Shown piece by piece: positions 2,109 through 15,303 of a stretch of 64,000 nt of DNA. The DNA lies in assembly GCA_029884455.1 (NCBI GenBank), contig JAOUHU010000009.1, positions 1-64,000 of the forward strand, given 5' to 3'. A program made the position numbers and the translations under genes. Every line of letters begins with the position of its first letter. The first letter of the stretch is position 1. The notes under the pieces were generated by a model. The model worked only from the letters and a program-made list of their open reading frames with translations. It did not search any database and had not been told where the DNA came from. This stretch comes from Gammaproteobacteria bacterium. GTDB taxonomy: Bacteria; Pseudomonadota; Gammaproteobacteria; Steroidobacterales; Woeseiaceae.

Positions 2109-2263
2109 TTTGGCCTCCCCAGGACTCAATCAGGAAAAGTTTGTCAGATCGCAGAATAGGCGCGAGCAAGCGCTACCAAAATAGGCGTTATTACGTAGGG
2201 TTTCAGGCCACTCGCGAACCTATGATAGTCAGGCCATATATTGTGTCGTCAGCGGGGATCGAT

Positions 2264-2491
2264 ATGTGCCTTGCCGTGCCGATGAAAATCAAAGCGATAG
2301 ACGGGTTTCAATGTACTTGCGAGGCACGCGGCATCGAGCGTGACGTCAGCCTGTTCATGCTGCAGGGCGAGGCGCTGCAGCCGGGTGACCACGTGCTCGT
2401 ACACGTTGGCTATGCAATCCAGAAGGTTTCCGCGAATGAAGCCTTTCAGTCCTGGCGATTATTCGATGAAATACTGAACAGCGCGATCTGA
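2264..2491 (+). CDS. hypC: Hydrogenase maturation factor HypC
   Basis: The start is set at the internal ATG at 2264, because HypC proteins begin MCLAVP and Cys2 is the functional residue that carries the Fe(CN)2CO unit between HypD and the hydrogenase large subunit. The upstream 41 codons of the track ORF are not credible. The product is 75 residues, normal for the family, starting MCLAVPMKIKAIDG and containing the typical GDHVLVHVGYAIQKVS segment. GGGGATC before the start may act as ribosome binding site. It is the first gene of the plus-strand hypCBDFE operon, 22 nt before hypB. Confidence 0.95.
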   Translation: MCLAVPMKIKAIDGFQCTCEARGIERDVSLFMLQGEALQPGDHVLVHVGYAIQKVSANEAFQSWRLFDEILNSAI

Positions 2492-2513
2492 ACAAGACCA
2501 GAGGGCAACGACG

Positions 2514-3299
2514 ATGTGCAATTCCTGTGGTTGTAATCTGACGCCGGGTAATGAACACCTGGTCAGCGCGGGCGGTCATCTGCACACGACAGCTGCTGGC
2601 ACCGAGTCCGTGCAGGTTCTGCAGGGGCTGCTGAACGCGAACGATGAACAGGCCATGCACAATCGCGAGCACTTTCGCGAGCATGGCGTGCTCGCCATCA
2701 ACCTGATGTCGTCGCCAGGCGCCGGCAAGACATCGCTGCTTGAAGCGACGATCGACGCAATCAGCGATGACTTTCGAATTGCGGTCATTGAGGGTGACCT
2801 TGAAACTGAAAACGATGCTGTGCGCATTCGCAGCAAGGGTGTGCCGGCAATCCAGATCAGCACCGGCAGCGCCTGTCACCTGGATGCGCACATGGTGCAT
2901 TCCGCCTTGCACGAATTAGATCTCGATACTGTCGACATTGTTTTTGTCGAGAATGTCGGCAACCTCGTTTGCCCGGCGAGCTTCGACCTGGGCCAGCGCT
3001 TTAACGTCGCATTGCTGTCGACGCCTGAGGGTGACGACAAGCCAGCGAAGTACCCGGTGATGTTTCGCGCCGCCGACCTGGTGCTGGTCTCCAAGTGCGA
3101 CCTGCTCAGCGTGCTTGACGATTTTGACCCGGCCAGGGTTCGTGCCGGTATCCGGCAGCTGGCGAGTGACGCGCCGGTGCTGGAACTGTCCGCCAGAACC
3201 GGCCATGGGCTCAGTGCCTGGACGGACTGGATCAGGCTTGCAGTTCGTGAGCTGACAGACCTTGCCGCGGTTTCGCATGCGCATGGAAAAGTTGCGTGA
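2514..3299 (+). CDS. hypB: Hydrogenase nickel incorporation GTPase HypB
   Basis: 261-residue SIMIBI-class GTPase that with HypA inserts nickel into the hydrogenase large subunit. It begins MCNSCGC, the N-terminal high-affinity nickel CxxCGC motif. The P-loop SPGAGKTSLL is at residues 67-76, followed by switch motifs including EGDLETENDAVRI and the SKCDLL guanine-specificity region. Only a few histidines lie between the CGC motif and the G domain, so it lacks the long polyhistidine nickel-storage stretch of some homologues. The stop overlaps the GTG start of hypD by 4 nt (GTGA), indicating translational coupling. Confidence 0.96.
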   Translation: MCNSCGCNLTPGNEHLVSAGGHLHTTAAGTESVQVLQGLLNANDEQAMHNREHFREHGVLAINLMSSPGAGKTSLLEATIDAISDDFRIAVIEGDLETENDAVRIRSKGVPAIQISTGSACHLDAHMVHSALHELDLDTVDIVFVENVGNLVCPASFDLGQRFNVALLSTPEGDDKPAKYPVMFRAADLVLVSKCDLLSVLDDFDPARVRAGIRQLASDAPVLELSARTGHGLSAWTDWIRLAVRELTDLAAVSHAHGKVA

Positions 3300-4429
3300 A
3301 CAGGACTGCGACAGACTGGCTTAAAGCGTTGCACGAACTCGGCATCCGGGAGCGTGTCCGCATCATGAACGTTTGTGGTGGACACGAGCGGTCGATTTCG
3401 GTTGCCGGATTGCGCAGTGCGCTGCCGGACAATATCGAACTGGTGCCGGGTCCGGGTTGCCCTGTTTGTATCTGCCCCGAGGAAGACGTCTTTGAAGCCA
3501 TCCAGCTGGCGCTGCACGAAGACATCATCCTGGTGGCCTTTGGCGACATGCTTCGAGTCCCGGTCAACGTGCCGCGCCGCGAGCCACGCTCACTCGAACA
3601 GGCGCGCGCTGTGGGCGCGGACATTCGACCGATCGCGTCACCGATGGATGCCGTGCGCATCGCCATCGGGAATCCGCAACGCAAGGTCGTGTTTTTCGCC
3701 GCCGGTTTCGAGACCACCACGGCACCGGTCGCGGCAATGCTGGCCGAGGGCGTGCCGGACAATCTGTTCGTGCTGCTGTCGGGCCGGCTGACCTGGCCGG
3801 CGGTTGCAATGCTGCTCGATTCCGAGGCCCCGGGCTTCGACGGCCTGATCGCGCCCGGACACGTGTCGACGGTGATGGGACCCGAGGAGTGGCAGTTCGT
3901 AGTCGACAAGCATCGCATTCCGGCCGCGATTGCCGGCTTTCGTGCCGACACATTGCTGGCCGCTATGGTTTCGGTACTTCGCCAGTGGCAGAGCGGCCGC
4001 GTGTTTCTCGACAACTGTTACCCCGAGGTTGTTCGACCCGGCGGTAACCCCGAGGCGCGCCAGCAGCTCGAACGCGTCATGCAGGTGGTTGATGCAAACT
4101 GGCGCGGAGTAGGCGTCATTCCGGCTTCCGGTTTCAGTCTGCGTGCCGAGTATTCGGTGCACGATGCGCGCCGCGAGTTCCCACGTTACGCGGACGACTC
4201 GCGCAAGCGCGTCGGCGAAATGCCGCCGGGTTGCGATTGCGCCAGGGTTGTGCTCGGCAAGATCTATCCGAACCAGTGCCGGCTGTACGGGCATGCCTGC
4301 GTACCGCGCAAACCGATCGGGCCGTGCATGGTGTCCGATGAGGGTGCCTGCCGAATATGGTGGTCGGCCGGTCACCGCGATAATCGCTGGGTGAGGGAAC
4401 CGGACCATGCGGCGCGCGCTGTCGGTTGA
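3296..4429 (+). CDS. hypD: Hydrogenase maturation Fe-S protein HypD
   Basis: 377-residue scaffold on which the Fe(CN)2CO cofactor is built with HypC. It starts at a GTG overlapping hypB. Conserved motifs are VCGGHE (usually CGGHT/CGTHT), GPGCPVCICPEED, FFAAGFETTTAP, GFDGLIAPGHVSTVMG and the C-terminal cysteines that bind the [4Fe-4S] cluster (MPPGCDCARVVLGKIYPNQCRLYGHACVPRKPIGPCMVSDEGACRIWW). The Glu replacing Thr in the first motif and the shortened N-terminus (the motif lies near residue 25) mark a divergent HypD branch rather than damage, since all cysteines are present. The 3' end overlaps hypF by 23 nt. Confidence 0.95.
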   Translation: MNRTATDWLKALHELGIRERVRIMNVCGGHERSISVAGLRSALPDNIELVPGPGCPVCICPEEDVFEAIQLALHEDIILVAFGDMLRVPVNVPRREPRSLEQARAVGADIRPIASPMDAVRIAIGNPQRKVVFFAAGFETTTAPVAAMLAEGVPDNLFVLLSGRLTWPAVAMLLDSEAPGFDGLIAPGHVSTVMGPEEWQFVVDKHRIPAAIAGFRADTLLAAMVSVLRQWQSGRVFLDNCYPEVVRPGGNPEARQQLERVMQVVDANWRGVGVIPASGFSLRAEYSVHDARREFPRYADDSRKRVGEMPPGCDCARVVLGKIYPNQCRLYGHACVPRKPIGPCMVSDEGACRIWWSAGHRDNRWVREPDHAARAVG

Positions 4430-6701
4430 AACGCTCGACTTTGACCCGGACCGTGACCGCGCCATCGCGCTCACGCTCTCGGGGCACGTGCAGGGCGTCG
4501 GCTTTCGGCCGTTTGTCTACCGGCTCGCGAACGAGTATGGCATTCGCGGTCAGGTACAGAACCGGCTCGGCGAGGTCGAAATCATCGCCTGCGGCCACCC
4601 TGATGCACTGGCGCGTTTTTGCCGCGATCTGCTGCAGCGTGCTCCGCCGCTGTCCCGCCCGCAGATCAGCCGCCAACGGGCGCTCGAACCTGCAGTCTAC
4701 GAACACTTCGATATTGTTGCGAGTTCGGCCGGCGCCGAGCCACGTGTATTCGTGCCGCCGGATTTTTTCATGTGCGACGATTGTCGCCGCGAGCTGCGCG
4801 ATCCGTTTGACCGGCGATTTCAGTACCCGTTCATCAATTGCACCCAGTGCGGCCCGCGCTACACCCTGATCGAGTCGCTGCCCTACGACCGTGCGAACAC
4901 CAGCATGCGGGACTTCGCACTTTGTGCTGCATGCGCAGCGGACTACCTCAACCCGGCTGATCGACGCTTTCACGCCGAGCCGGTGGCCTGCCCGGCGTGT
5001 GGCCCCGCGCTGCACTTCATGGCCGATGGCGAGGTAACCGCTGATAAGCCGCTGCGGCGCGCGCTCGACAGCCTGCGCGACGGTCGCATTGTTGCCGTCA
5101 AGGGGGTCGGCGGTTATCACCTGATGTGCGATGCGCAGGACGCAGCCGCCGTAGCCCGGCTGCGGACGCGAAAACATCGCCCCGACAAACCGCTCGCGGT
5201 CATGTTTCCGATCTCAGGCGGGGATGGGCTGGACATGGTTCGTCGCCATGCGACGCCGGATGCCGACGAGGCAGCGCTGCTCGCGAGTCCGTTGCGGCCG
5301 ATTGTGCTGCTGCGGAAAAAAACCGGTACCGGCATCGCCAGCAATGTCGCACCTGGCCTGGGTGAGATCGGGGCATTGCTGCCCTACAGCCCGCTGCACC
5401 AGTTGCTGCTTGACGCCTTCGGCCGCCCGCTGGTCGCGACATCGGGGAACATCAGCGGCGAGCCGGTATTGACAGACAACGATGAGGCTGCCACCGGCCT
5501 TGCTCCGGTCGCCGATGCTTTTCTGCAGCACAGTCGTCGCATCGTCCGGCCGGCTGATGATTCCGTGTACCGCAAAATTGCATCGGTTCTGCGTCCGCTG
5601 CGCATTGGTCGTGGTGCGGCGCCGGCTGAACTCACATTGCCCTGGTACCAGGACTGCCCGACGTTGGCGGTGGGTGGCCAGATGAAAGCCGCGATTGCAC
5701 TGAGCTGGGAGGACCGCATCGTGGTGTCGCCGCACATCGGCGAAATGGACAGCCCGAAGAGTCTCGCTGTACTCGAACGCCTCGCGGACGATTTGCAGTC
5801 GCTGTACAAGGTCAAGGCAGAACGTATCGTTTGTGATGCGCACCCGGCTTATACGACGCATCGTTGGGCGCATCGCCAGTCCGCGCTGCCGGTCGAGCAC
5901 GTGTGGCACCACCACGCGCACGCAAGTGCGCTCGCCGCCGAGGGCGGTCTGGGCACACAGAGCCTGTTATTCACCTGGGACGGCGTCGGGCTCGGCGAGG
6001 ATGGCAGTCTCTGGGGCGGTGAGGCATTGCTTGGTGGTGCCGGTCATTGGCAACGTGTGGCGAGCCTGCGCCCGTTTCGACTGCCAGGAGCGGATCGCGC
6101 CGGACGGGAACCCTGGCGAAGTGCCGCGGCGTTGCTTTGGGAGTGCGGGCAATCGTGGCCCGACTGCCCGGACCGCACCGGTCTCGCCGCGGCGGCCTGG
6201 CGGGCGCAGCTGAACTGCCCGCAAACCACAGCGGCTGGCCGCCTGTTCGATGCGGCGGCGGCGCTCGTTCTCGGGCTCAATTTCGCCAGTTTCGAGGCGG
6301 CCGGGCCGATGCAGCTCGAGGCGATCTGCCGGCGTCGTCAGCCGCCCATAGGCTTGCCGCTGGTCAAGGACCATAACGGCATCTGGCGCAGCGACTGGGA
6401 GCTGCTGCTGGCACTGCTGCAGGACAGTTCGATCAGCGCCGCGCGGCGCGCTGAGATCTTTCACTCGAGTCTCGCGCACGCGATCCTGGCGCAGGCGCGC
6501 CACGTTCGGGACGAGCGTGCGGTCAGCAGGGTCGGGCTCTGTGGCGGTGTATTCCAGAACCGGGTGCTGAGCGAAGAGGTCGCGGAGCTGCTGCGCAATG
6601 ACGACTTTGAAGTTGTCATGCCGCGCCAGCTGCCGTGCAACGATGCGGCACTTTGCGTTGGTCAGGCAGCCGAGATCGCGGCACGTGCCGCGAACGGGTG
6701 A
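4407..6701 (+). CDS. hypF: Carbamoyltransferase HypF
   Basis: 764-residue multidomain enzyme that makes the cyanide ligands from carbamoyl phosphate together with HypE. Domains in order: acylphosphatase-like (ALTLSGHVQGVGFRPFVYRLA, residues ~20-100), two zinc-finger pairs (CDDCRREL, CTQCGPRYT, CAACAADY, CPACGPAL, ~115-205), YrdC-like domain (KGVGGYHLMCDAQD to SGNISGEP, ~210-400), and a Kae1-like carbamoyltransferase domain with HHHAHASALAAE, FTWDGVGLGEDGSLWGGE and GLCGGVFQNRVL. Full family length with no gaps. It overlaps hypD at its start and is followed 5 nt later by hypE. Confidence 0.97.
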   Translation: MRRALSVETLDFDPDRDRAIALTLSGHVQGVGFRPFVYRLANEYGIRGQVQNRLGEVEIIACGHPDALARFCRDLLQRAPPLSRPQISRQRALEPAVYEHFDIVASSAGAEPRVFVPPDFFMCDDCRRELRDPFDRRFQYPFINCTQCGPRYTLIESLPYDRANTSMRDFALCAACAADYLNPADRRFHAEPVACPACGPALHFMADGEVTADKPLRRALDSLRDGRIVAVKGVGGYHLMCDAQDAAAVARLRTRKHRPDKPLAVMFPISGGDGLDMVRRHATPDADEAALLASPLRPIVLLRKKTGTGIASNVAPGLGEIGALLPYSPLHQLLLDAFGRPLVATSGNISGEPVLTDNDEAATGLAPVADAFLQHSRRIVRPADDSVYRKIASVLRPLRIGRGAAPAELTLPWYQDCPTLAVGGQMKAAIALSWEDRIVVSPHIGEMDSPKSLAVLERLADDLQSLYKVKAERIVCDAHPAYTTHRWAHRQSALPVEHVWHHHAHASALAAEGGLGTQSLLFTWDGVGLGEDGSLWGGEALLGGAGHWQRVASLRPFRLPGADRAGREPWRSAAALLWECGQSWPDCPDRTGLAAAAWRAQLNCPQTTAAGRLFDAAAALVLGLNFASFEAAGPMQLEAICRRRQPPIGLPLVKDHNGIWRSDWELLLALLQDSSISAARRAEIFHSSLAHAILAQARHVRDERAVSRVGLCGGVFQNRVLSEEVAELLRNDDFEVVMPRQLPCNDAALCVGQAAEIAARAANG

Positions 6702-6706
6702 GGTAC

Positions 6707-7708
6707 ATGGAAGACGAGCGCATAACTCTTGCACACGGCAACGGCGGTCGATTCATGCGCGAATTGATCGAGGAAGTGTTTGCGCGGAACCTTGCCGATT
6801 CCGATCTCGATACAGAGGCGGATGCCGTGCCAATTGCACTGAATGGCGGCGAGGTGATGATCACCACCGACGGTTTCACCGTGCAGCCGCTCGAATTCCC
6901 GGGTGGCGATATCGGCTCGCTGGCTGTGCACGGCACGGTTAACGACCTTTCGGTGGCCGGTGCGCGGCCGATGTACCTGACATTGAACGCGTTCATCGAG
7001 GAGGGGCTGGAAATCGCGTTGCTCGACCGGCTCATTGCCAGTCTAGCTGCAGCCGCGCGCGAGGCGAACGTCAAGGTCAGCGCCGGCGACACCAAGGTGT
7101 TACGCAACGGCGAGGGTGGCGGACTGTACCTGGCCACGACCGGCGTCGGCATCCGCTTGCCGGGCGCGCGGCTGTCGATCAGTAACATCCGGGACGGCGA
7201 CGTCATCCTGGTCAGCGGTTCGGTCGGTGACCATGGCACCGCGATCATGCTGGCGCGCGAAGCGTTCGGCCTGCGCGGCGACGTACGGTCGGATTCTGCC
7301 CCGGTCGCGGAGCTGACCGAGGCACTGCTGCAGTTCGACGGCCTGCGGTTCATGCGCGACCCGACACGCGGCGGGATCGCCTCAGTGGCTAACGAGATTT
7401 GTCGTGCCACCGGCCTCGGCGTGCGCTTCGAGGCGTCGATCCCGGTCAAGGACCCGGTGCAATCCGTATGCGAAATGCTCGGCTACGACCCCTATTACCT
7501 CGCTTGCGAGGGTCGCGTCGTCGCGGTCATTGCAGCGGATCAGGCGGACGCGGCACTGCGTACCTGGCGGCAATGCCGGCGCGGACAGGATGCGGCGCGC
7601 ATCGGCACAATTTCGGCTGCCAACTCGCGTGTGATCCTCGAGACCGGCCTGGGTGGCGAGCGCTTCCTTGAAGAGCTTGAGGACGATCCCTTGCCGCGCA
7701 TCTGCTGA
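6707..7708 (+). CDS. hypE: Hydrogenase expression/formation protein HypE
   Basis: 333 residues from the ATG at 6707, which gives the family start MEDERITLAHGNGGRFMRELI; the track ORF begins 72 nt earlier inside hypF. HypE takes the carbamoyl group from HypF onto its C-terminal cysteine and dehydrates it to a thiocyanate that supplies Fe-CN. The invariant C-terminal tail PRIC is present (DDPLPRIC). The AIR-synthase-like ATP site is represented by GDTKVL and DPTRGGIAS. Spacing to the next gene is only 10 nt, so the kinase downstream probably belongs to the same transcript. Confidence 0.96.
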   Translation: MEDERITLAHGNGGRFMRELIEEVFARNLADSDLDTEADAVPIALNGGEVMITTDGFTVQPLEFPGGDIGSLAVHGTVNDLSVAGARPMYLTLNAFIEEGLEIALLDRLIASLAAAAREANVKVSAGDTKVLRNGEGGGLYLATTGVGIRLPGARLSISNIRDGDVILVSGSVGDHGTAIMLAREAFGLRGDVRSDSAPVAELTEALLQFDGLRFMRDPTRGGIASVANEICRATGLGVRFEASIPVKDPVQSVCEMLGYDPYYLACEGRVVAVIAADQADAALRTWRQCRRGQDAARIGTISAANSRVILETGLGGERFLEELEDDPLPRIC

Positions 7709-7718
7709 CGGCGTCACG

Positions 7719-9302
7719 ATGCATCGAGCCGGCTCAGGAATCGCCCCGCTTAATACTGAGCTGCTCGAGCGGCTGTCGGATCCGGCAGCTTTCGATTTCC
7801 CGCCGGGCAAAATTGAAACCATTGAGACGCATATTTCATGGGTGATCCTGACGGACCGTTATGCCTACAAGATCAAGAAACCGCTGCGGCTCGAGTTCCT
7901 GGACTTCGGCACGCTCGAGCGACGCAAGTTCTTTTGCGACGAAGAAATCCGCCTGAACCGCCCCTGGGCGCCGGACATTTACCTCGATGTCATCGCGATT
8001 ACCGAGGATGGCGAGCGGCTTCGCTTCGGTGACCACGGCCGAACGGTCGAATATGCGGTCAGGATGCGCCGCTTCGATGAAAGCCTGCGCCTCGACCGCC
8101 AGCTCAGCGCGGGGCAGCTGACTGCCGCGGACATGCGCGAACTCGGTGAGTCGATCGCCGCCAGGCACATGGCGGCCCCGATAGCAGATGTAGCAGACCG
8201 TGCGCGCACACTGCGCATGACGAGTGCGCTAATTCGTGACAATTTTGCGCCATTGCACGGCCAGACCAATGCGGACACTTTGACATCACTACTGGAATGG
8301 ACAGAGGCCGAGCTTGCAGCCACTGCTACCCTGATTGAGCAACGATTTGATGCCGGTTTTTTTCGCGACTGTCATGGCGATCTGCACCTGGCAAACCTGG
8401 TACGCATGCCCGGTGGCATCCGCACCTTCGACTGCATCGAGTTCAGTGAGGATATGCGTCGCATCGATGTCATCTGTGATACCGCTTTTCTGGTCATGGA
8501 CCTGGTCGCGAATGCTCGCAGTGATCTCGCCGCCGGTTTTCTGAATCGCTATCTGGAGTGCTGTGGAGATTATGCTGGCGTGGCACTGCTTGACCTTTAC
8601 TTCGTCTACCGGTCGCTGGTGCGCGCCAAGGTCGCCGTGATCTGCAGCCAGGAATGCGAGCTGCAGAGTGAACGCCTGAGAAATCTCGCTGATGCCGATC
8701 GTTACTGCCGCATAGCGTTGCGCCAGACCTGGAAACCGGCACCGATGCTGGTGATCATGAGCGGACTGTCCGGGTCGGGAAAAACCTGGGTCTCGAGCCA
8801 GCTTTTGGCGCGCTTGCCAGCGATCCGCATTCGCTCGGATGTGGAACGCAAGCGCCTGTTCGGCATTGCCGAGGGTGCGGCCAGCGGGTCCGGAATTGGC
8901 GAGGGTATTTATTCTTCGCAATCGGGTCAGGACGTTTATGAGCACCTTTTCAGGACTGCCCGGTTGCTGCTGGATACACGGCACAACGTAATCCTTGATG
9001 CTGCGTTCCTGCAGCAAAAGTTCCGGGATGCTGCACTGGAAATCGCCGCTGGCCGTGGATACTCGGTCGTTATCGTCGATGTTCGGGCGCCAATGGCATT
9101 GCTGCGCGAGCGTCTGCAGTGGCGCCGCGAATCAGCGGCTGATGCCTCAGAAGCGGATTTCGATGTACTTGATTACCAGCTTGCCGCGGCAGAAGAACTT
9201 ACGGCGAGTCAACTGCAACGCACGATCGTGTTTGAGAATATCGAGGGCTGCAGCGTTGATCGCCTGGTTGCAGACATACGGCGCAAGGCAGGGACAGCCT
9301 AG
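7719..9302 (+). CDS. Fused aminoglycoside-phosphotransferase-like / P-loop kinase protein in the hyp operon
   Basis: 527 residues from the ATG at 7719. The N-terminal ~340 residues are an APH-like kinase fold: a lysine-bearing strand YAYKIKKPLRLEFLDF, the catalytic loop CHGDLHLANLV and the metal segment FDCIEFSEDMRRIDVICDTAFLVMDL. The C-terminal ~170 residues are a P-loop kinase of the AAA_33/zeta-toxin-like type with Walker A GLSGSGKT near residue 350, SDVERKRLFG, and a lid region RLQWRRESAADASEADFDVLDYQLA. This fusion family is known but its substrate is not. It follows hypE by 10 nt, so it is likely co-expressed with hydrogenase maturation genes, and its stop overlaps the stop of hypA on the other strand by 4 nt. 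A role in hydrogenase biology is inference from position. Confidence 0.8.
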   Translation: MHRAGSGIAPLNTELLERLSDPAAFDFPPGKIETIETHISWVILTDRYAYKIKKPLRLEFLDFGTLERRKFFCDEEIRLNRPWAPDIYLDVIAITEDGERLRFGDHGRTVEYAVRMRRFDESLRLDRQLSAGQLTAADMRELGESIAARHMAAPIADVADRARTLRMTSALIRDNFAPLHGQTNADTLTSLLEWTEAELAATATLIEQRFDAGFFRDCHGDLHLANLVRMPGGIRTFDCIEFSEDMRRIDVICDTAFLVMDLVANARSDLAAGFLNRYLECCGDYAGVALLDLYFVYRSLVRAKVAVICSQECELQSERLRNLADADRYCRIALRQTWKPAPMLVIMSGLSGSGKTWVSSQLLARLPAIRIRSDVERKRLFGIAEGAASGSGIGEGIYSSQSGQDVYEHLFRTARLLLDTRHNVILDAAFLQQKFRDAALEIAAGRGYSVVIVDVRAPMALLRERLQWRRESAADASEADFDVLDYQLAAAEELTASQLQRTIVFENIEGCSVDRLVADIRRKAGTA

Positions 9303-9670
9303 CAGGACGCGGCAGGCCTGCTGGTAGCCGGAGTCAGCTCGATGCTTTGCAGCAGCAATTCGTCGCCGCTGATGAGATGCGTACGAAAGTCGCCACAGGT
9401 CTTGCACAGCAACCGGTTCGGCGGGACCGTTGACTCTTCGCCGCAGCGGCTGCAGCGCACCACGACCTCCGCTGCAGCGATGCTCAGTTCGGCATGTTCT
9501 GCGATTGTGCCCGCAGCTGCCAACGGGTATGCGCGTTGCAGCAACCGCGGTTCAATACCCGACAACGGTCCGAGTCGCAGCACGATTCGGGATACGCTCA
9601 GTGCGTTTTTTTCGCGCGCGATCCTCTCGACCTGGTCGAGAAGCGCGCTGCAGACGGATAGCTCATGCAC
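9299..9670 (-). CDS. hypA: Hydrogenase nickel metallochaperone HypA
   Basis: The correct start is the GTG at 9670, giving (M)HELSVCSALLDQVERIA; His2 of the MHELS motif is the nickel ligand. The track ORF starts 105 nt too early. The product is 123 residues with the zinc-ribbon CSRCGEESTVPPNRLLCKTCGD. HypA delivers nickel together with HypB. It is the last gene of the minus-strand hya operon: its GTG overlaps the hyaF stop by 8 nt, and its own stop overlaps the end of the kinase gene on the plus strand. hypA is thus split from hypB-F, which lie in the opposing operon. Confidence 0.94.
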   Translation of the reverse strand: MHELSVCSALLDQVERIAREKNALSVSRIVLRLGPLSGIEPRLLQRAYPLAAAGTIAEHAELSIAAAEVVVRCSRCGEESTVPPNRLLCKTCGDFRTHLISGDELLLQSIELTPATSRPAASC

Positions 9671-10694
9671 CAGCGGGCAGAAACGCGAATTGCCCGGCGT
9701 CGCATTGCGGGCAACGCCAGTGTTCTGGGAGGTCACGAAATTCAGTGCCAGCCGGAATCTGCTCGAGTGGATCACCTGCGGCGGGATCGTAGAGATACCA
9801 GCAGATCCGGCATTCGTACCGCGTCGCGTTGGTGTCGGGCCAGTACGGCGTCAGCAGTCCCGCGAGGCGCTGCGCCGAATCCTGCAGGTCCTCCGGTGCG
9901 GCACAAATGACCGCGGGTACATCGATGACTTCGAGTGTGTTCAGGATCAGCGTGTTCATCGAATTGTAGAAACGTACCCACCAGACGTTCGGCACCTGGG
10001 TGCTGATGACCTGGCACTTGCCATACGCACGCGACAATGTGTCAACCGGGCCGCGGCCGAGTTGTTCATCGAGGAACACCAGGTCGGCATCCGACAACGG
10101 CAGCAGCGTGAGGTTGATCACGTGCGGCTTGCCGCTCAGCTCGTAGTCCTGCACGTGCGATCGCAATTCGACCAGCAGCGACAATGCATTCATGAGATCG
10201 GCGGAATCGTCGCCCGGCCGGGCAACAATCTCACGCTTGCCGGCGGCTGCCATGCGAACCACGTGCGGAGCGTCGGCAACTTCGAGTATGTCAGCGATGA
10301 TGCGATCTGCATCGTCGAGGTACAGTGTGCGCCACACACCCGCGAGCACCGCTTCCTGCGTCCGTGCACGCAGCTCGCCGTTGAAACTGATAGCGACCTC
10401 GCCTTCGCCAAGTATCTGGTTGACCAGGCCGCGATTGTCGTCATCAAGCGCCGTCAGGTTCGCGAGTTGCGGCGCTGCGCAGTGCGGATATCTTGCCAGC
10501 GCCTGTTGCAGCCATTGCATCGCGTCGCGAGCTGCCGCGAGGTTCTGCACGGCGTCCGGCTCCGGCAGCTCCGGAGGTCTGTAGGACCACATTTCGCTGG
10601 GCATATCGATGTAGGACAGGACCTGGCCGTCGTGTTCCTCCGGCTGACTGCGGGGGCCGATCACACGCACAGGAATCGATCCAATATCCATCAT
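9663..10694 (-). CDS. HyaF/HupH hydrogenase assembly protein fused to a C-terminal rubredoxin
   Basis: 343 residues. Residues 1 to ~285 match HyaF/HupH: an N-terminal MPSEMWSYRPPELPEP segment, GEGEVAISFNGELRARTQEAVLAGVWRT and a central VWWVRFYNSMNTLILNTLEVIDVPAVI block. The last ~55 residues are a rubredoxin domain with both CxxC knuckles (YECRICWYLYDP and WRCPQCDAGQFAFLP), equivalent to HupI. In most oxygen-tolerant hydrogenase operons HupH and HupI are separate proteins; both assist assembly and protection of the small-subunit Fe-S clusters under oxygen. The reading frame is continuous through the junction, so this is a genuine fusion. The start overlaps hyaE (ATGA). Confidence 0.9.
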   Translation of the reverse strand: MMDIGSIPVRVIGPRSQPEEHDGQVLSYIDMPSEMWSYRPPELPEPDAVQNLAAARDAMQWLQQALARYPHCAAPQLANLTALDDDNRGLVNQILGEGEVAISFNGELRARTQEAVLAGVWRTLYLDDADRIIADILEVADAPHVVRMAAAGKREIVARPGDDSADLMNALSLLVELRSHVQDYELSGKPHVINLTLLPLSDADLVFLDEQLGRGPVDTLSRAYGKCQVISTQVPNVWWVRFYNSMNTLILNTLEVIDVPAVICAAPEDLQDSAQRLAGLLTPYWPDTNATRYECRICWYLYDPAAGDPLEQIPAGTEFRDLPEHWRCPQCDAGQFAFLPAGA

Positions 10695-11113
10695 GAAATC
10701 TCGGTGACGACCGGAATACTGAATCCGGGCGCCCGCCGCGGAGCGCTCAGCAGAAGTTCGCCGATTTTCTCGAGATATTCGCTCCAGTCCCGAATCCGGG
10801 TCAGCGAACCCACGAAATCACCGCCGCGTACAAATACCAGCGCCGGGTACTCGGTAAAACCGTAACGGCGCCGCAACGCGTTGCCATCACCAAAGACATC
10901 ACGCACCACGCCGGGCCGCAATTGGCCATCGAAGGCTGTGACCAGTTCTGGCAGGACCACCGCGACATCGGTTGCATCGCGCACCGTCGTCGTGTCGCCC
11001 GGGAAAAACAGCACGTTCATGCCCGGCATGGCGACAAAATCATCGTGGCTGGCCAGCGAAACATCCGCGTAGCCGAGCTCGGTGACGAGCCGATCGACGA
11101 GTGCATGGCTCAT
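10691..11113 (-). CDS. hyaE: Hydrogenase small-subunit chaperone HyaE/HupG (thioredoxin-like)
   Basis: 140-residue protein with a thioredoxin fold lacking the CxxC redox pair, as expected for HyaE/HupG. The stretches MNVLFFPGDTTTVRDATDVAVVLPEL, VVRDVFGDGNALRRRYGFTEYPALVFVRGGDFVGSLTRIRDWSEYLEKI and the C-terminal IP segment are typical. The family binds the Tat signal peptide and precursor of the hydrogenase small subunit. It overlaps both neighbours by 4 nt (hyaD upstream, hyaF downstream), indicating translational coupling. Confidence 0.88.
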   Translation of the reverse strand: MSHALVDRLVTELGYADVSLASHDDFVAMPGMNVLFFPGDTTTVRDATDVAVVLPELVTAFDGQLRPGVVRDVFGDGNALRRRYGFTEYPALVFVRGGDFVGSLTRIRDWSEYLEKIGELLLSAPRRAPGFSIPVVTEIS

Positions 11114-11721
11114 GGCCGCGCTCCACCCGGCAGGGGGCGGCCGTGTTCATAGTCATGGATGGCGAGTGCGCCGGGACCGGTTCGCTCCCGCGCCGGCAGC
11201 ACCGTCTTGCGGCGTTCGAATTCGATGCCCCAGTCTTGCAGTACCTCGCGGGCCAGTGCCAGCGCCGGCTCGACCTGGGCTTTCACGCCGGGGGTCAGGC
11301 TGCCGCCATAGTCGTTAAGGATTGCGGGTTGCACGCCGACCAGTGCAACCTGGCCCGGGAACTCGCCCGACAGTTTTGCTGACGACAACACTTCCTGGAA
11401 GCCTGCCTGGTGCATGCTGACTTTTTTTGCGGCCATATAACTGGGCACGGCGTCGCCAATGATGAGTTTCAGAGTCGCCGGCGCCAGGCCGAAATCGATG
11501 GCGTCGAAGATCAGCAGGCGCCCAGCCGATCGCACCCAGGGCAGCAGAAAAATTCCCTGCGTGCCGCCATCCATCAGCCGCACACCGGGTTCGAACTCGT
11601 AGCGCTCATTCAGGGCCTCGATGCAGCGCACGCCAAAGCCCTCATCGGCCCAAAGCACGTTACCGATACCGAGGATCAGCGTGTCGAAGTTGTGATGGCA
11701 AGTATCCACGGCATCAGTCAC
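11110..11721 (-). CDS. hyaD: Hydrogenase maturation protease HyaD
   Basis: 203-residue nickel-dependent endopeptidase that removes the C-terminal tail of the large subunit after metal insertion. Three metal ligands fit the family: Glu in GIGNVLWADEGFG, Asp in IFDAIDFG and His in VSMHQAGFQEVL. The region VALVGVQPAILNDYGGSLTPGVKAQVEPAL is characteristic of HyaD/HupD. The C-terminus carries about 20 residues beyond the core. It overlaps hyaC by 8 nt and hyaE by 4 nt. Its substrate is the adjacent large subunit, which has a cleavable tail. Confidence 0.95.
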   Translation of the reverse strand: MTDAVDTCHHNFDTLILGIGNVLWADEGFGVRCIEALNERYEFEPGVRLMDGGTQGIFLLPWVRSAGRLLIFDAIDFGLAPATLKLIIGDAVPSYMAAKKVSMHQAGFQEVLSSAKLSGEFPGQVALVGVQPAILNDYGGSLTPGVKAQVEPALALAREVLQDWGIEFERRKTVLPARERTGPGALAIHDYEHGRPLPGGARP

Positions 11722-12409
11722 GGTACGTGCGCCAGCCGTTGATGATCGTCCTGACGCTGCTCTGAGAACTCACGAGGTCGGCGCGGATCGCCATGTATAT
11801 ATGAATGATGGTAAATACGATAAACAACCACATGCCGAGGATGTGCAGCATGCGCACCTCCTGTGAGCCGCCCAGCAACGGGATGGCCCAGCCAAACCAG
11901 GCGTCGGCCCAGCTGCCGAGGCCAAGCCCCTCGCCGTACAGGGCGAAGCCGGTCACGATCATGAAAAAACCCAGCAGCACGTTGAAAATCCACATGGCGA
12001 ATTGGGCCAATGCATTGTGGCCCACATTGGGCGGCGCCTCGCGGCGCAGGAACAGGTAGAACTTCACTTCTTCAATGAGATCGTGCCACCAGGCACGGCG
12101 CCAGACGGGCAGATAAAGCAGCTCACGCGAATACTTATTGCCGACGAAACCCCAGTAAATGCGCACCGCGAAACCGATCGTAAATACGTAAGCGGCAATG
12201 AAGTGAATCAGCCGCAGATTGCCCATCAGGAAATGTTCGCTGGCTTCGCCCGGCGGGCTCGACAAGGGATTCGCGATCAGGTAGCCGGTGACCGCCAGCA
12301 CCAGGATCGACAAGGCATGCAGCCCGTGCCAGATGCGGACCGGCAATTCGAAAACGTAAACCGGCTGCCGTTGGCTGCCTGGAACGCTGTCTGCGGCGGT
12401 ACTGGCCAT
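11714..12409 (-). CDS. hyaC: Ni/Fe-hydrogenase b-type cytochrome subunit HyaC
   Basis: 231-residue membrane diheme cytochrome b that anchors the hydrogenase and passes electrons from the small subunit to the quinone pool. Four hydrophobic helices are visible: ALSILVLAVTGYLIA, LIHFIAAYVFTIGFAVRIYWGF, FAMWIFNVLLGFFMIVTGFALYG and LHILGMWLFIVFTIIHIYMAI. Candidate heme-ligating histidines are RIWHGLHAL, LIHFIAAY, RMLHILGMW and TIIHIYMAI. It lies 17 nt after the large-subunit gene and overlaps the protease gene by 8 nt. Confidence 0.95.
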   Translation of the reverse strand: MASTAADSVPGSQRQPVYVFELPVRIWHGLHALSILVLAVTGYLIANPLSSPPGEASEHFLMGNLRLIHFIAAYVFTIGFAVRIYWGFVGNKYSRELLYLPVWRRAWWHDLIEEVKFYLFLRREAPPNVGHNALAQFAMWIFNVLLGFFMIVTGFALYGEGLGLGSWADAWFGWAIPLLGGSQEVRMLHILGMWLFIVFTIIHIYMAIRADLVSSQSSVRTIINGWRTYRD

Positions 12410-12425: not shown

Positions 12426-14211
<1,786 letters not shown>

Positions 14212-14219
<8 letters not shown>

Positions 14220-15303
14220 GCTGCGCCCCCTTTGCTTCGCTGCTCCTCAGGCGGCTTACCGCTGTTGCAGCAGCGTGCGCGGCCACGCCGACCGCTGCAG
14301 CGCCGGCAAGTACGCCGCCGATCCTGTCGGCTGTGGCCTCGACGCCGCCCATTGCGCCAAAATTCGTAACTGCGTTGTAGAAAGAGCCCTTATCCCAGAA
14401 ATTGTCCTCTGCGCAGCCCAGGCAGCCGTGCCCGGACTTGACCGGCCAGGACAGGCCGCCGTTCCATTCCAGCGTCGAGCAGGCGTTGTACGTTGTTGGT
14501 CCCTTGCAACCGACCTTGTACAGGCAGTAGCCCTTCCGCGCGCCTTCATCGTCAAAGCGCTCGACGAACTGGCCGGCATCAAAGTGCGGGCGCCGGTAGC
14601 ATTTGTCATGCAGGCGTTGCCCGTAGAACATTTTCGGCCGGCCCTGGCGGTCGAGCTCGGGCAGTGCATCGAATGCAATCATGTAGGTGATGACGCCGGT
14701 CATGACTTCGGCAATGGGCGGGCAGCCCGGCACCTTGATGACCGGCTTGTCGAGTATGACCTTGTGGATCGGCGTAGCCCGCGTCGGGTTTGGCCGTGCC
14801 GCCTGCACGCAGCCCCACGACGCACAGGATCCCCACGCGATGATTGCCTTGCAGTGGTCGGCCATGTAACGGAGCTTTTCGACATAGGGTCTGCCGCCCT
14901 GGATGCAGTACATGCCGTCCTCGTTGAGGGGCGGATTGCCCTCACAGGCGAGGATGTACTGGCCGTCGTATTTCTCGACAGTTTGGGCCAGCAGTTCCTC
15001 GGCCTGGTGCCCCGCAGCCGCCATCAGCGTGTCGTCGTAGTCGAGCGAGATCATTGACAGTATGACGTCGCCGGCGAGCGGATTGCCGGAGCGGATAAAC
15101 GACTCCGTACAACAGGTGCACTCAAGGCCGTGCAGCCAGATAACCGGCGTGCGCGGTTTGGTCTCGAGCGCATGCGCAATCGTGCCCGCGAATTCGGGAC
15201 CGAGCCCGAGCCCTGCCGCGGTGAGACTGCAAAATTTGAGGAAGCTTCGGCGCGTAATGCCATGCTGGCGCATAACTTCATAGAATGTTTCGTGAGCCGG
15301 CAT
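14212..15303 (-). CDS. hyaA: [NiFe]-hydrogenase small subunit HyaA, six-cysteine proximal cluster (oxygen-tolerant type)
   Basis: 363-residue precursor with a twin-arginine signal, [20 protein letters not shown], and likely cleavage before LETKPRTP (residue 46). Proximal-cluster cysteines are in [11 protein letters not shown] and [11 protein letters not shown], plus VPGC. The supernumerary cysteines equivalent to Cys19 and Cys120 of E. coli Hyd-1 are both present (residues 64 and 165), which marks the [4Fe-3S] cluster of oxygen-tolerant enzymes. Medial and distal cluster cysteines lie in [33 protein letters not shown] and [10 protein letters not shown]. The C-terminal hydrophobic stretch [22 protein letters not shown] is the membrane anchor. 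First gene of the operon. Confidence 0.98.

Follow-up and report, generated by a model that had tools for sequence, protein, structure and literature searches.

Does one protein combine two assembly factors of oxygen-tolerant [NiFe]-hydrogenases, and what would such a union say about how these factors work? The question is raised by a gene in the window (the whole stretch of 64,000 nucleotides that was analysed), which a sequence-only reading described as a HupH-like protein with a complete rubredoxin as its C-terminus. The same reading took the fusion as direct evidence that the two components act at the same place and in a 1:1 ratio, with the rubredoxin delivering or removing electrons during cluster assembly in the small subunit.

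Several published observations bear on the two components. One article describes hoxO and hoxQ as coding for specific chaperones (PMC5186783), and the title of a paper cited in PMC3772215 assigns the Rhizobium hupGHIJ operon a role in maturation of the iron-sulfur subunit. According to PMC10583674, Cupriavidus necator without the rubredoxin HoxR shows an EPR spectrum that resembles that of the small-subunit C19G variant. Its authors read this as initial evidence that Cys19 depends on HoxR to bridge correctly when the [4Fe-4S] cluster is converted to Cys6[4Fe-3S] in air.

In this study, we examined the fusion gene, its operon and its junction, compared them with related loci, and weighed what the architecture implies for maturation of the small subunit.

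Results

A HupH-rubredoxin gene in an intact hydrogenase operon

The open reading frame begins with ATG, has no internal stops and is present in one copy in the whole genome, a draft in 151 contigs with 88.9% completeness and the only assembly of its species used here. That it encodes a HupH-like protein with an in-frame, complete rubredoxin at the C-terminus was confirmed by Pfam matches and by the four Cys residues. Both domains lie well above the curated cut-offs (HupH_C, 196 bits versus 23; rubredoxin, 77 bits versus 23). The first score, together with a location after hyaE in a hydrogenase operon, places the N-terminal part among the HupH/HyaF/HoxQ proteins; the C-terminal part matches the entire 47-position PF00301 profile with two CxxC motifs, as in the HupI/HoxR rubredoxins. 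An AlphaFold model of the protein, built from a 3-row alignment, had a pLDDT of 36.9, too low for use. In the HupH part, dN was 0.22-0.25 and dS 1.4-1.6, similar to the values between split relatives; dN was also low in the rubredoxin part, where dS was saturated.

On the minus strand, the genes follow the order small subunit, large subunit, cytochrome b, HyaD protease, HyaE, fusion and HypA, i.e., an intact hyaABCDE-fusion-hypA arrangement (Table 1). The small subunit motifs LECTCC and DGMYC align with LECTCC and DGMSC of C. necator HoxK. Since this six-cysteine motif is a mark of the O2-tolerant proximal cluster, the operon is predicted to encode a six-cysteine, O2-tolerant (group 1d-like) [NiFe]-hydrogenase. 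An APH/AAA_33 kinase-like protein is encoded at 7653-9302, convergent with hypA; a homolog (65% identity) also adjoins hypA in one relative (G015).

Table 1. Features of the hydrogenase region in the window
Feature	Position	Strand	Details
hypC, hypB, hypD, hypF, hypE	2141..7708	+	strand opposite to hya operon
hypA	9299..9670	-	PF01155; GTG start at 9670, overlaps fusion stop by 8 bp
HupH/HyaF::rubredoxin fusion gene	9663..10694	-	343 aa
Rubredoxin domain	9681..9821	-	residues 292-338; PF00301, E=9.8e-22; Cys295/298/328/331
Junction/linker	9819..9836	-	DTNATR; site of ATGA/GTGA stop-start overlap in relatives
HupH_C domain	9852..10196	-	residues 167-281; PF04809, E=1.6e-58, two stretches
hyaE/hoxO	10691..11113	-	PF07449; 4-bp overlap with fusion start
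hyaD/hoxM maturation endopeptidase	11110..11721	-	TIGR00140
hyaC/hoxZ b-type cytochrome subunit	11714..12409	-	TIGR02125
hyaB/hoxG large subunit	12426..14219	-	PF00374; 63% to HoxG
hyaA/hoxK small subunit	14212..15303	-	TIGR00391; Tat signal model; two extra cysteines

The junction in split relatives

Among 119 relatives, genes for HupH and rubredoxin are neighbors in 25 loci and are split in every one, as expected from the claim that the two are normally separate genes. In 24 of these loci the HupH stop and the rubredoxin start overlap or abut; nearly always they share a 4-bp ATGA or GTGA, and the rubredoxin is read in the +2 frame. The sole exception (L023) has a gap of 28 bp. Alignment to L003, the relative that fits best, shows 11 bp missing from the window at this point; the ATGA is among them, and their loss restores the frame exactly. 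Going upstream from the rubredoxin, the last in-frame ATG, GTG or TTG occurs approximately 97 codons from the end of the fusion, inside HupH, so that no start codon is left for a separate rubredoxin.

A frameshift at the junction, which the sequence-only reading had named as the finding that would overturn it, was checked by comparison with relatives. A one-base error joining two genes would leave both the overlap (ATGA) and the leader of the rubredoxin untouched; in the window the overlap is lost and 11 bp are missing relative to L003. A one-base frameshift was rejected on these grounds, and the junction looks like the product of a deletion.

Occurrence and origins of the architecture

Class and phylum surveys and two order searches, analyzed with purpose-built HMMs, yielded both genes, split, at 86 non-identical loci; the genes are fused only in the window and at three loci of Salmonella. 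The same architecture is present in S. enterica arizonae and diarizonae and on a Salmonella plasmid, and the Salmonella protein is 93-95% identical between these two subspecies. The HupH::rubredoxin architecture thus already exists in Salmonella, and the window is a second case, a precedent that the sequence-only reading overlooked, as it did the missing hybE/hoxT. Keyword searches of one literature collection found no paper describing such a fusion, and text searches in two Salmonella Hyd-5 papers gave no match for the accessory-protein terms used.

When 75 HupH proteins were placed in a maximum-likelihood tree, the window was nested in a supported clade formed by its own genus, whose members have split genes. 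Well-supported branches force two changes to the fused state on this tree, which gives two independent origins, one in the window lineage and one in Salmonella. The window protein shares the single-ORF architecture of the Salmonella HydG-type fusion, but not common descent of the fusion.

Two candidates were rejected. G827/L072 seemed fused by its in-frame coordinates, and a stop codon was found between the genes. L093 was matched end to end and proved to be a split HupH followed by a rubredoxin::HybE fusion; its record is titled as an Exiguobacterium profundum metagenome-assembled genome, yet its HupH groups with Pseudomonadota loci, and it is probably mislabelled or contaminated. Separately, Escherichia coli IBS28 (L033, 4782-6400) carries a remnant of a Salmonella-like hyd operon in which the rubredoxin, a protein in the HydH position and hypA are left, with a frameshifted Tat-signal fragment upstream.

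Absence of HybE

In the nearest relatives, hybE (hoxT) is located between the rubredoxin gene and hypA. It is missing from this place in the window (9663-9670), and HybE was not found anywhere in the genome at its 88.9% completeness; nor was it detected in the fused Salmonella operon. HybE is encoded downstream in 83 of the 86 split loci (the exceptions are L049, L136 and L137) and is missing in both fused lineages. With Salmonella counted once, fusion and HybE absence are associated (Fisher exact p=0.0026), a value computed from related loci and only two events. In eight of the 83 HybE-bearing split loci (L075-L078, L082, L093, L100 and L102), the rubredoxin is itself fused to HybE.

Discussion

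We consider it likely that the fusion is real and recent, arose by deletion in a lineage that also lost hybE, and yields a working maturation factor of two domains that serves the small subunit of an O2-tolerant membrane-bound [NiFe]-hydrogenase. Complete domains, a complete six-cysteine operon, low dN in the HupH part and conservation of the Salmonella protein across subspecies argue for function. A recent short deletion would have taken out the 4-bp stop-start overlap of two genes that were already coupled, and hybE/hoxT would have been lost from between the rubredoxin gene and hypA in the same lineage. The roles in binding and cluster assembly are drawn by analogy from the literature on C. 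necator and Rhizobium: binding of the small-subunit precursor is most likely the task of the HupH/HoxQ part. During the rearrangement of the proximal cluster from [4Fe-4S] to Cys6[4Fe-3S] in air, the HupI/HoxR-type rubredoxin tethered to this part may exchange single electrons or give protection, and the fused protein would keep this redox partner at the bound precursor.

The same junction could in principle be explained by local mis-assembly that deleted the boundary between two real genes. The genome is a draft and its nearest relatives, with approximately 70% HupH identity, have split genes; however, the 11-bp deletion restores the frame exactly and removes the ATGA, it is not a homopolymer slip, and the downstream gene order is clean up to the overlap with hypA, all of which makes an artefact highly improbable. 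A real fusion could also be neutral, a by-product of compaction in which a deletion joined adjacent coupled genes and removed hybE, and the product was tolerated without gain or the locus had begun to decay. With a 4-bp overlap and translational coupling in relatives, one short deletion is enough to fuse the genes without selection; hybE is deleted as well, and elsewhere the rubredoxin has been joined to its other neighbor. We regard this explanation as unlikely nevertheless, given the low dN kept in both domains, the four intact Cys residues, the complete operon and the retention of the Salmonella fusion across subspecies.

A further explanation, compatible with a functional maturation factor, ties the fusion to HybE loss: normally the rubredoxin would serve HupH as well as HybE, and a lineage without HybE could tether it to HupH alone. 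We offer it tentatively. It is consistent with the distribution of HybE among fused and split loci, and the title of Fritsch 2011, cited in PMC3772215, lists HoxR along with HoxT as contributing to O2 tolerance; against it stand the small number of events, the phylogenetic non-independence of the loci and the three split loci that also lack HybE. About as tentative is a direct functional link, in which tethering to HupH replaces or bypasses the step that HybE would perform when the O2-tolerant proximal cluster is assembled. The shared absence provides a concrete, testable idea on the division of work between HoxR and HoxT in assembly of this cluster.

These considerations narrow what can be read from the fusion. 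What stands is that the two genes are usually separate, that they are fused in the window, and that genetic work in the literature assigns both to cluster maturation of the small subunit. The view of the fusion as direct evidence of co-location and a 1:1 ratio is not supported, because adjacent, coupled genes fuse easily and the rubredoxin is joined to HybE in other loci, and the fusion says nothing on the direction of electron flow. It supports, without proving, a joint action of HupH and rubredoxin on the small subunit, and a second independent fusion of these two assembly factors is modest evidence for such action. The fused protein would also be convenient for capturing the complex in which the small subunit is assembled.

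Comparison with known systems

The closest parallel in architecture is the 353-aa HupH::rubredoxin protein of Salmonella enterica Hyd-5, whose gene is the seventh of nine in a plasmid-borne operon. The Hyd-5 operon is given as hydABCDEFGHI in PMC3940037, a gene order that matches the fused-locus operon, and by operon position we assign the fusion to HydG. It resembles the window protein in domain order, in its complete rubredoxin, in its place after a HyaE-like gene and in an operon where hybE was not found. It differs in its sequence (34-35% identity), its longer linker, the HoxV/HupK-like gene and then hypA that follow it, and its separate origin by the tree.

In C. necator, HoxQ and HoxR are homologs of the two halves of the window fusion (44% and 54%, respectively) and belong to the same kind of operon, but hoxQ and hoxR are two genes with a 4-bp overlap, followed by hoxT (hybE) and hoxV. 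The rubredoxin::HybE proteins, e.g., in Azospirillum thermophilum and Paraburkholderia phymatum, are like the window protein in that the same rubredoxin is joined to a neighboring hydrogenase chaperone; their partner, however, is the downstream HybE/HupJ and not the upstream HupH.
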